Source of the DNA: Candidatus Nitrosotenuis sp.
GTDB lineage: Archaea > Thermoproteota > Nitrososphaeria > Nitrososphaerales > Nitrosopumilaceae
Direction of reading: 5' to 3'
Assembly: GCA_016844685.1 (NCBI GenBank)
Contig: JAENJF010000002.1
Span: 1-39,449, forward strand
DNA length: 39,449 bases
The notes beneath the pieces were generated by a model. The model saw nothing but the letters and a program-made list of their open reading frames with translations, did no database searches and was not told the origin of the DNA. Every line of letters starts with the position of its first letter. Within the stretch, counting starts at the first letter, position 1. A program made the position numbers and the translations under genes. Shown in pieces: positions 35,910-39,449 of this stretch.

Positions 35910-36645
35910 TTGACCAAGATTTCGTTTAACAAGATTTACAACATGAATTGTATTTCTCATAGTAACCGATCCTCCGTTTGCGATTGATTTTAGAGCGACA
36001 AGACAAAACTACAACAGAACTGCATCCAGAGTAATGCAGGGGTATAATGAAATTAAACAAAAGGACTATTATGATTTTTCACTCCGGTGGATGTCAGATG
36101 CATTTAGGATTCTAAAAAAATCTGGAAGCATGTATGTTTTTTCCGGATGGAACAATCTCAAGGACATTTTAAATGCTCTGGATAATGTGGGATTCGTTAC
36201 CATCAATCACGTAATTTGGAAATACCAATTTGGAGTAGTCACATCAAGAAAATATGTAACGTCGCATTATCATTGCCTGTATGTTTGCAAAGACGAGAAA
36301 AAAAGAAAATTCTATCCGTTTGTAAGATTCAAAAAGACAGATAGAACGCAAGACGGACACAGTCTTCACTACAAAGACAAAGAAGACGTCTGGGAAATAA
36401 AACGAGAATACTGGACGGGTGATAAAAAGACGCCAACCAAATTACCCGCAGAAATTGTAAAAAAAATTCTCCAGCATTCTAGTAGGACTGGTGATGTAGT
36501 GTTTGATCCATTTTTGGGCTCAGGCCAAGTTGCAGTGATTAGCAAGATGCTAAAGCGCAAGTATCTTGGCTTTGAAACCGTCCCAGAGTACTATGATTTT
36601 GCCAAAAATAGGCTTGAAAAGAACATGTACAGATTAAAGGCATAG
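35910..36645 (+). pseudogene. Beta-type (N4/N6) DNA methyltransferase, probably decayed by deletion/frameshift near the N-terminus
   Basis: Frame A from TTG 35910: MTKISFNKIYNMNCISH...; frame B: IVFLIVTDPPFAIDFRATRQNYNRTASRVMQGYNEI... through FDPFLGSGQVAVISKMLKRKYLGFE. The DPPF motif lies upstream of the track ORF start at 36034 and its frame stops at 35944-35946. Confidence 0.75.
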
Positions 36646-36661
36646 GCTCTGTCAAATCTAC
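36645..36661 (+). repeat. Left copy of a 17-bp perfect inverted repeat GGCTCTGTCAAATCTAC
   Basis: Reverse complement at 37842-37858. Confidence 0.9.
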
Positions 36662-36665
36662 GGTT

Positions 36666-36691
36666 ACTTGGTAATTATACAATAACCAAGT
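36666..36691 (+). repeat. Subterminal imperfect palindrome (candidate IS200/IS605 left-end hairpin)
   Basis: ACTTGGTAATTATACAATAACCAAGT: 7-bp stem, one mismatch, 3 further bp, ATAC loop. Confidence 0.7.
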
Positions 36692-36712
36692 CATTATGTA
36701 GTCATACACTGA

Positions 36713-37845
36713 TACCTATACACGGAATCAACATTATCTGTCACCCAACATCATAGCAGTCCTGAATTAGTATCGTTAATGGAAGAATTCAGGTGGATGC
36801 TAAACGAATCCATCAGAATTGGAATGGAGAGAAACCTTACCTCACAGCAAGCCTTCAATTCTAATGTATATCAAGAGCAATACAGGTGGCAAAGTCAAAG
36901 ATCAACGATTTTAGAAAAACAAGAAAAAAGAATCCAAATGCCAAAATCCCATACTACAAAAAACCATATGTTACAGTCGATAAACAGTCATACCAAATCA
37001 TGGGAAACACACTCATAATCGGAGTCAGGCCTGGGCGACCATACGTTGGAATTCCACTAAATGATTATACTGTATCCCAATTCGCTGATCCTCACATCAA
37101 AATTGGAGCAATTACAATTACCCGTAATACAATATCTATTTCAATATCAAAAGAAACTCAAAGTATCACACCAACCGAATTTGTAGGAATCGACACAAAT
37201 CTGAACAATATATCTACGGTTCACTCAGATGGACATGTCGACGTTTTCTCAGATGTAGCCAAGATAACAAAAATCAAGCAAAAATACAGAAAGGTAAAAT
37301 CACATTTCAGGCGAAATGATGTCAGAATTGGAAAGAAAATATTTCAGAAATATGGCACAAAACAACAACACAAAACCAAGCAAACCCTTCACAATATTTC
37401 AAAAAAACTCGTAACACAGAAAAAGCAACTAATCCTTGAGGATCTAAAAGGCATTAGAAAACTATACCAAAAAGGAAATGGCCAAGGAACAAAATACCGC
37501 TCAAGGCTCAACGGCTGGCCATTTTATGAATTTAAAAGGCAACTAGAGTACAAATCAAAGTGGTATAACGGGATTCCAGTCATCAAAATAAAACCCAACA
37601 AGACGTCATCAAAGTGTTCGATATGTGGGGCAAAAGTAATCCCCGAAGAGAACCGACAGATAAGATGTCATTGCGGTCACAGAGAAGACCGCGATATCAA
37701 TGCTGCACGCAATATTTTGTATAAAGGAGTACCAGTTGTGCAGCTACGAGGCCTGCGACTCAGGCCAGACGCGCCACAAGGTGAAGCAATGAAGCAGTCA
37801 AAAGATGCCAAGCAGATTGTGACGAGTCAAATCAACCTACAGTAG
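36713..37845 (+). pseudogene. tnpB: TnpB-family RNA-guided nuclease, frameshifted (N-terminal frame 36713-~36880, main frame ~36865-37845)
   Basis: N-terminus ...LSVTQHHSSPELVSLMEEFRWMLNESIRIG; main part with VGIDTNLNNIST, LILEDLKGIRK, SSKCSICGAK...CHCGHREDRDINAARNIL; C-terminal EAMKQSKDA. Confidence 0.88.
37750..37766 (+). ncRNA. Candidate omegaRNA (reRNA) hairpin within the tnpB 3' coding end
   Basis: GGCCTG-CGACT-CAGGCC perfect 6-bp stem, 5-nt loop, just downstream of the zinc-finger codons, where TnpB-associated RNAs are known to originate. Confidence 0.4.
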
Positions 37846-38512
37846 ATTTGACAGAGCCCTCTTTTGAAAGAATCTGCACTTCAGACGACGTTACGAGTTT
37901 CTTGAAGGTTCTTGCGTCGTTTTCGCTTCCCACAATACTGCCATAGTGCATTGGAATTGCAAGCTTTGGTTTTATTTCTTTAACCGCTTTTGCTGCTTCA
38001 TCTGCAGTCATTACATATGTTCCACTAACGGGTACAAATAAAACATCTGGTTTTATGTCAATCATTTCAGGTATCAAATCAGAGTCTCCAGTATGATAGA
38101 ATCGAGTATTGTTTACTGTTATGATGAACCCTACCTTGTTGTCCTCTTTTGGATGAAACGGCTTTTTTGTATCTGAATTTATCTTGTCAATGTTATAGGC
38201 GCGGACTGCACTTATTTTGAATCCGTCAATATCTTTTTTTTCATTTGGGGCAATGCCGATTAATTTCTTGCATGGTAGTTTAATTTGTCCAAGACATTCT
38301 TTTGCTGCTACTATGACGGTTTTTTCATCAACGATTTTTTCCAAGTCAACAACACTTAGATGATCAAAATGATTATGAGAAATCAATACGATATCTGCAT
38401 GAAATTTTTTCTCTATCTTGTATGGATCAAAACAAATTGTGATATTATCTTTTGTTAATGTGAATGTATCATGCCCATACCACTTTATCTTAATACCGTT
38501 ATATTCCAGCAT
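37832..38512 (-). CDS. Metallo-beta-lactamase-fold metal-dependent hydrolase (UPF0173-like)
   Basis: ISHNHFDHLSVVDL, FYHTGDSDLIPEM, PVSGTYVMTADEAAKAVKEIKPKLAIPMHYG. Confidence 0.88.
   Translation of the reverse strand: MLEYNGIKIKWYGHDTFTLTKDNITICFDPYKIEKKFHADIVLISHNHFDHLSVVDLEKIVDEKTVIVAAKECLGQIKLPCKKLIGIAPNEKKDIDGFKISAVRAYNIDKINSDTKKPFHPKEDNKVGFIITVNNTRFYHTGDSDLIPEMIDIKPDVLFVPVSGTYVMTADEAAKAVKEIKPKLAIPMHYGSIVGSENDARTFKKLVTSSEVQILSKEGSVKSTVG
37842..37858 (-). repeat. Right copy of the 17-bp inverted repeat (GTAGATTTGACAGAGCC on + strand)
   Basis: Reverse complement of 36645-36661; overlaps the last codons of the MBL gene. Confidence 0.9.
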
Positions 38513-38536
38513 AATTTAAAACCATTATTTACCAAG

Positions 38537-38914
38537 TTAAACTTTGCTTGATTCCAATACTATTTTGTTATTCGAAATAGAAATTATAGAGCCGCCAAAT
38601 TTTTTTATGATTGATTTTAGCTCTCTGTCCATTGTTGCCACAATGCCCCCCTGTTTTTTTATGTATGATTGTAATGCCGCATCAGCAAAATTACCATTCA
38701 AGGAAATGGTCGGAAATGATTTGATGTAATCAAGCGTTAGAATTACAGCGCCTTTTTTTTCCTTGTCATCTAAAAGCTTCTTTAGTTCCATAATCACAAT
38801 ACTTGGAATGATAAATCGAATGCTGCCTATTTCAGTATCAATTGTTGAGAGATTCTTTATTCTATTGGTAGCCAAATGAATGAGAAAACTTGTGTCGCAT
38901 ATTACATCAACCAA
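38537..38914 (-). CDS. PIN-domain protein (Fcf1/VapC-like)
   Basis: VDVICDTSFLIHLAT...IPSIVIMELKKLL...NFADAALQSYIKKQGGIVATMDRELKSIIKKFGG. Confidence 0.85.
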   Translation of the reverse strand: MVDVICDTSFLIHLATNRIKNLSTIDTEIGSIRFIIPSIVIMELKKLLDDKEKKGAVILTLDYIKSFPTISLNGNFADAALQSYIKKQGGIVATMDRELKSIIKKFGGSIISISNNKIVLESSKV

Positions 38915-39449
38915 CTATGCCTGCTCCGATTAGTCGCCATCTTTCCTCAATCTTTCTGCTTATTGCAACATTACTTTGTTCAAAAAGGCAAACTGGCCTT
39001 TTGAATTGAACCTCGATATTCTCTGCCTTTGCCTTGATTACCTTGGCAAGAACTGGCGCAGTTCCTATATTGAGTCGTAATGATTCTCCTGCCTGTATTG
39101 GTGTTACCTTGACATCGTTTACTGTTCCAACCGCAGAATCAAACAGATTGACTTGTAGATGTGCTTCATTCGAGTTTTCTGGCAGTGTACCCGGTTTTCC
39201 TATAACTGATCCAATCAGAGAATCACTTCGAGTGAGTGAAGGATCTAACTTGGTTCCTATTGCCACAAGACCTCCTGGCTTTACACCGTTTACTATTCCT
39301 GCTGCCGTACCTAGCGAAACAACTTGTGTATGGATTGGCTCGTAATTATTTTTCTTGCTGCTAAGGATACCTGGTTTTATCTCAATTTCATCTCCAATTG
39401 AAAATGTCCCTTGAGTCAGGCTTCCTCCGATTACTCCGCCTTTGATATT
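38907..39449 (-). CDS. Translation initiation factor aIF2 subunit gamma, C-terminal part; gene continues beyond window end
   Basis: Frame open to window end: NIKGGVIGGSLTQGTFSIGDEIEIKPGI...GGLVAIGTKLDPSLTRSDSLIGSVIGKPGTLPE...KRPVCLFEQSNVAISRKIEERWRLIGAGIV. Confidence 0.93.
   Translation of the reverse strand, partial: NIKGGVIGGSLTQGTFSIGDEIEIKPGILSSKKNNYEPIHTQVVSLGTAAGIVNGVKPGGLVAIGTKLDPSLTRSDSLIGSVIGKPGTLPENSNEAHLQVNLFDSAVGTVNDVKVTPIQAGESLRLNIGTAPVLAKVIKAKAENIEVQFKRPVCLFEQSNVAISRKIEERWRLIGAGIVG

Follow-up and report, generated by a model that had tools for sequence, protein, structure and literature searches.

TnpB is an RNA-guided DNA cutter and the ancestor of Cas12. In bacteria and archaea it has been described together with either Y1 transposases (IS200/IS605 elements) or serine transposases (IS607), and the target motif of these elements doubles as the target-adjacent motif (TAM) of the nuclease. 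Y1 elements have no terminal inverted repeats and make no target duplications. Transposition in the IS6 family is thought to be replicative. Here we describe a tnpB gene of the archaeon Candidatus Nitrosotenuis sp., located on contig JAENJF010000002.1, of which the whole stretch of DNA analysed (positions 1 to 39,449; 39,449 nt) is referred to as the window. The gene lies between the arms of a 17-bp inverted repeat, and no description of TnpB between ends of this kind, which are IS6-type, was found in the incomplete literature searched. We consider it likely that the locus is a non-autonomous transposon in which tnpB and its presumed omegaRNA lie between IS6-type ends served by a transposase in trans, with 8-bp duplications made on insertion; TnpB would cut the empty alleles. 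TnpB would be the sole cargo of this element, which is without a transposase of its own; in ammonia-oxidising archaea, it would seem, a second and unrelated kind of transposon has taken TnpB on.

Terminal repeats, target duplications and empty sites

The 17-mer GGCTCTGTCAAATCTAC at 36645-36661 on the forward strand has its exact complement at 37842-37858, and pairing extends to 20 nt at 95%. The window holds two matches with up to three mismatches, against 0.10 expected; the perfect inverted repeat described in an earlier, sequence-only reading of this DNA is thus exact and above chance. The parts of the element and its immediate flanks are:

36645..37858, + strand: whole element as assembled, 1214 bp, with non-matching flanks
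36645..36661, + strand: left terminal inverted repeat, IS6-type, GGCTCTGTCAAATCTAC; exact match, with the same end on other host-genome copies
37842..37858, - strand: right terminal inverted repeat and presumed omegaRNA 3' end; exact complement, with the same end on other copies and on the intact elements of genomes G010 and G005
36637..36644, no strand: left copy of the 8-bp duplication of the methyltransferase-site insertion, AAGGCATA; partner AAGGCCTA on host contig C80
36634..36636, + strand: candidate TAM, TTA abutting the 5' side of the duplication; 12 of 14 insertions have T(T/C)A here
37859..37866, no strand: right copy of the 8-bp duplication of the insertion at the metallo-beta-lactamase (MBL) site, CTCTTTTG; relatives read TTATTA followed directly by CTCTTTTG

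The element ends start with GG and have G at position 7, which fits the IS6 consensus end GGTTCTGTTGCAAA (PMC6807381). Since the place of archaeal elements in the IS6 family proper is disputed (PMC6807381), we use the term 'IS6-type'. The window contig itself shows no duplication, but across copies of the element we find duplications of 8 bp, the length made by IS6 (PMC6807381, PMC7986276). Two genomes of the same genus carry a 1257-bp element with an intact tnpB at the same location (G010:C17 and G005:C87), flanked by the exact duplication AAATCTCT; its left end is decayed. The uninterrupted counterpart of this site in G008 and G006 has one copy of the octamer and no repeat. In the host genome, contigs C126 (left end) and C6 (right end) represent one insertion, the flanks of which meet in the relative G006 (L239) with a 7-bp overlap, giving the duplication ACTAATC(G). 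At the methyltransferase site, the left flank in the window ends in AAGGCATA, while host contig C80 starts inside the right end of the element and continues with AAGGCCTA and then with sequence that matches what lies past the methyltransferase gene in relatives (77-82% over 1.5 kb in four); the duplication pair AAGGCATA/AAGGCCTA can be written AAGGC(A/C)TA. Relatives' empty sites are free of any copy of the repeat at the end of the MBL gene, after the methyltransferase gene and at two further insertions.

The element is mobile and present in multiple copies. The host genome (G000; 1.33 Mb in 153 contigs, 84% complete) contains the 17-mer eight times exactly and 14 times with up to two mismatches, against none for the reversed control. 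Nearly all of these matches are left or right ends of the same TnpB element, often at contig ends that fall inside it, so the search for further copies that the sequence-only reading had proposed shows that the 17 bp travel with the element. Another full-length copy (C60:80109-81207) shares both boundaries and has perfect ends around an interior that is 79-87% identical and carries deletions. There are also miniature derivatives, solo palindromes without tnpB, of 39 bp (L029:1608-1646, corresponding to C137:8607-8645) and 36 bp (C60:8984-9019), which are flanked by the exact 8-bp duplications TAGGAATA and ATTAAGGA, respectively, given in tnpB orientation; no duplication was found at a 120-bp derivative on C66. 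To judge from their sequences, the miniatures would arise by deletion between GTCAAATC of the left end and GTCAAATC just inside the right end.

Right-end remnants occur at the same place in two species (L252, G010:C17 near 69463; and L073 up to 3942, G007:C38), upstream of an aspartyl-tRNA synthetase-like gene, representing an old shared insertion. The right end of a related TnpB element (GGTTCTATTACC..., L091 near 2443, G007:C1) adjoins the 3' end of an apparent tRNA gene.

The flanks of the window element belong to two different places. The methyltransferase locus lies at 1.30 Mb and the MBL locus at 1.75 Mb in the closed genome of the relative G008, a distance of 445 kb, and G006, G007 and G010 have them on different contigs. 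It follows that in the window contig the flank to the left of the element comes from one insertion and the flank to its right from another, and the assembled element is probably composed of the left part of the first and the right part of the second. Going by gene order in the relatives examined, the convergent-gene junction, taken by the sequence-only reading for the original site, is not ancestral. The C60 copy also joins two places: in relatives, the sequence to its left runs on into the right flank of C28, and the right 152 bp of the segment that contains it (L021:1610-2860; G000:C60:80109-81359) match an empty site on host contig C144 at 90% identity, which suggests strain mixture or misassembly in this metagenome-assembled genome. 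Misassembly at the repeat, or strain mixture, is probably what joined the flanks. Recombination between copies is a possible cause, as is IS6-type cointegrate chemistry, which yields exchanged flanks (PMC7986276). The segments 1-36644 and 37859-39449 of the window should not be taken as contiguous, and synteny-based findings across 36645-37858 are unsafe.

The genes at both boundaries overlap the element. The stop codon of the methyltransferase (GCA-TAG) borrows the first G of the element, and the MBL open reading frame (ORF) reads GSVKSTVG out of the right repeat copy. These overlaps had been described correctly, but GSVKST had been taken for the C-terminus of the MBL protein. In relatives this protein ends in ...LSKE with tandem stops, exactly at the element boundary, and GSVKSTVG is therefore read-through into the transposon end and not native coding sequence.

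The sequence-only reading explained the repeat as a possible fossil target: convergent genes would once have shared a bidirectional terminator hairpin, and the insertion of an IS200/IS605 element would have separated its two halves. The arms do show perfect complementarity, and each is located at the end of one of two convergent genes. However, the empty sites of relatives lack the repeat, the repeat recurs elsewhere together with the element, and the methyltransferase and MBL genes are not neighbours in relatives, so we consider a split hairpin almost certainly wrong. The alternative offered alongside it, namely that the repeats are the true ends of a differently mobilised TnpB, agrees with the IS6-type ends and their 8-bp duplications.

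The tnpB gene and its candidate transposase

The cargo of the window element comprises:

36779..37845, + strand: tnpB, degenerate; N-terminal frame from 36779, frameshift near 36871, then a 319-aa frame at 36886-37845
37640..37858, + strand: presumed omegaRNA region, from the conserved tnpB 3' end into the right repeat, with a terminal GUCAAAUC/GAUUUGAC stem; drawn from an alignment with a weak consensus structure

As had been noted from the sequence, tnpB lies between the repeats. It keeps its RuvC and zinc motifs; its frame, though, is broken, since 43 nt near 36871 are missing in comparison with intact 371-aa relatives and the frames do not join. The 319-aa frame matches Cas12f1-like_TNB (PF07282, 5e-22) and passes the NCBIfam guided_TnpB model (118.7 against a cut-off of 100). 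The tnpB stop codon falls within the right repeat. The omegaRNA is presumably encoded at the tnpB 3' end and the right end of the element, between the tentative boundaries listed above; a folded structure is plausible, if weakly supported, and an Rfam search of the region returned no match. The host copies of tnpB are decayed. The orthologous intact genes of G010 and G005 are under purifying selection (dN 0.07, dS 0.34 and dN/dS 0.21 by NG86, where dN and dS are nonsynonymous and synonymous divergence; the YN00 ratio is 0.32), which supports a working nuclease.

Similar arrangements are found in other TnpB lineages of Nitrososphaeria. We scanned TnpB loci for GGTTCTG-type inverted ends combined with an exact 8-bp duplication and found both at 9 of 52, compared with a mean of 0.0 over 30 shuffles and with none of 42 control loci. 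Examples are L096 (GGTTCTGTTAACTT, AAAGAGAG), L104 (GGTTCTGGTGCATC, CTAATAAC) and L113 (GGTTCTGTGTAATTGACGAGACC, CAACAAGA), with L200, L216 and L221 as further loci of this kind. Lineages in which IS6-type ends can be detected are interspersed on the TnpB tree with lineages that show none (12 changes; clustering not beyond that of shuffles). The tree does not decide between a single origin and repeated capture, as several rows scored as lacking ends are cut by contig ends or show only the right end, and L203 and L217 are counted as having ends on weak matches.

These loci bear on whether we are dealing with an ordinary IS200/IS605 or IS1341-type TnpB element that is moved by a Y1 TnpA in trans and has inverted-repeat ends by chance. 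TnpB is otherwise known from IS200/IS605, IS607 and TnpB-only elements, small hairpins are possible at both ends, and TTA lies roughly where a TnpA target or TAM would be expected. Terminal inverted repeats with duplications, however, occur at many loci and in several lineages, and the exact 8-bp duplications and empty sites contradict Y1 mobilisation, to which we give very little credence. The window element contains no ORF besides tnpB, and so no Y1 (HUH) TnpA inside; no search was made for such an enzyme in the rest of the genome.

The enzyme acting on the proposed IS6-type element may instead resemble that of a 3013-bp element in the same genus (L074, G006:C16), where one end is an identical 17-mer, the other is GGTTCTGTCAAATTCAT and the duplication TCAAACAT is exact. 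Its 429-aa protein contains an IS6-type DDE domain (PF13610, 53.5 bits; cut-off 27) and scores 120.8 bits with the NCBIfam IS6 model, just below the cut-off of 125. In Nitrososphaeria we found ten elements with IS6-like transposases and exact 8-bp duplications. We considered whether TnpB travels as a passenger inside such elements, but those examined carry other passengers and not TnpB.

Among the elements with IS6-like transposases and exact 8-bp duplications, L168, L169, L170, L172, L174, L183 and L228 are 2.4-3.4 kb in length, which is unusually long for IS6, and several have a DDE domain preceded by a SWIM-like zinc segment, along with passenger ORFs of no assigned identity.

A one-sided T(T/C)A motif

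We compared 14 insertions of the window family, oriented by tnpB. On the side of the left end, the three bases that precede the duplication read T(T/C)A at 12 of the 14; all 14 have T at -3, and 13 have A at -1. At any other offset the motif is found in no more than two. With a background of 0.04, the binomial p is about 1e-15. On the right-end side the motif occurs once in 11 (p=0.0002), and in the ten IS6-like elements without TnpB it occurs at 1 of 20 sides (p=2e-6). Because the motif was seen in the data before testing, we treat these p-values as descriptive; the useful controls are the comparisons with the right-end side, with other offsets and with the IS6-like elements. At the eight sites where the left flank is read directly, all eight have T(T/C)A. 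In the window the motif is the TTA at 36634-36636. The TTAC at 36664-36667, suggested earlier as a possible TAM or target, lies inside the element and is not kept in the C60 copy. In other lineages the triplets are T-rich but different (T at -3 in 8 of 10 versus 3 of 10, p=0.07, not significant), as expected, though not proof, if each TnpB has its own TAM.

The position of T(T/C)A is where a TAM must lie if the guide consists of the duplication and the right flank, and we infer that it functions as one. In the mechanism that we propose, an IS6-like DDE transposase would recognise the GGCTCTGT... ends in trans and join them to staggered target cuts, which would produce the 8-bp duplication. With the right end forming the presumed omegaRNA 3' end, the guide of TnpB would be the duplication plus right flank, and TnpB would recognise the unoccupied allele beside the T(T/C)A that precedes the duplication. 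Cutting of empty alleles would lead to the occupied allele being copied in or retained, favouring insertions with a TAM. It is an evenly balanced question whether TnpB has been so completely taken over by the IS6-type lineage that insertions occur almost exclusively beside a TAM, either through selection of survivors by empty-allele cutting or through TAM-bound TnpB-omegaRNA steering integration. If true, this would be RNA-guided retention or targeting coupled to a transposase chemically unrelated to TnpA. The prediction is that T(T/C)A is the TAM of the intact 371-aa TnpB. Should that be so, the usual view that TnpB guards its element against loss on excision would not simply apply, IS6 transposition being thought replicative, and a homing or gene-drive role becomes testable.

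The motif might alternatively reflect the lineage's IS6-like transposase preferring T(T/C)A on one side, in which case TnpB is a passenger that is slowly being lost and the motif says nothing of it. The decay of the host tnpB copies fits such a preference, as does the TCA at the same position in the tnpB-less miniatures. It sits poorly with the ten related IS6-like elements that lack the motif, with the purifying selection on tnpB at the orthologous site, and with a bias that favours one side, following the direction of tnpB, despite ends that are inverted repeats of each other; we think it rather unlikely, if worth serious consideration.

Several observations weigh against the non-autonomous, TnpB-guided transposon that we favour. 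Both complete-looking host copies have non-matching flanks, and no complete host copy has a duplication on one contig. At 6 of the 14 motif sites the left side is taken from a relative, and at three the duplication is assumed. The two solo copies of 36-39 bp carry the motif without tnpB, and the transposase itself could prefer T(T/C)A. The host assembly, which is 84% complete, yielded no IS6-like transposase, and we therefore infer an enzyme acting in trans. Finally, dS of the intact tnpB pair (L076:3252-4508 and L078:1194-2450) is, at 0.34, about half that of the flanking genes (0.67-0.73); gene conversion and codon constraint are possible explanations.

Comparison with known systems

The element resembles IS6 (IS6/IS26) and its miniature inverted-repeat transposable elements (MITEs) in starting with GG, in having G at position 7, inverted repeats of 14-18 bp and an 8-bp duplication, and in that MITEs are known in this family (PMC7986276, PMC6807381). 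It differs in that the window element lacks a transposase and has tnpB as its only gene, while the IS6 review reports passenger genes for a single member. With IS200/IS605 and IS1341-type elements it shares a TnpB with RuvC and zinc motifs, a tnpB whose 3' end extends into the right end and, where the TAM would be on the left side, a short motif, but here the duplication separates that motif from the left end. Membership of IS200/IS605 fails because of the terminal repeats and 8-bp duplications.

The use of flanking DNA as a guide for cutting empty alleles has been proposed for TnpB gene drive and retention (PMC11870625). That role is demonstrated for IS200/605, whereas for the present element it would be exercised alongside a transposase of different chemistry. 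The nearest analogy is with Fanzor1 and Fanzor2 of eukaryotes, TnpB homologues captured by DDE transposons (mariner, hAT, IS4-type) that have terminal repeats and make duplications (PMC3627910, PMC10711439). In contrast to these, the elements described here are archaeal, encode true TnpB, have IS6-type ends and occur in several lineages of one archaeal class. That TnpB turns up repeatedly between IS6-type ends with 8-bp duplications suggests that, in prokaryotes, it is of benefit to transposition chemistries unrelated to each other, a parallel to the role of Fanzor in eukaryotes.
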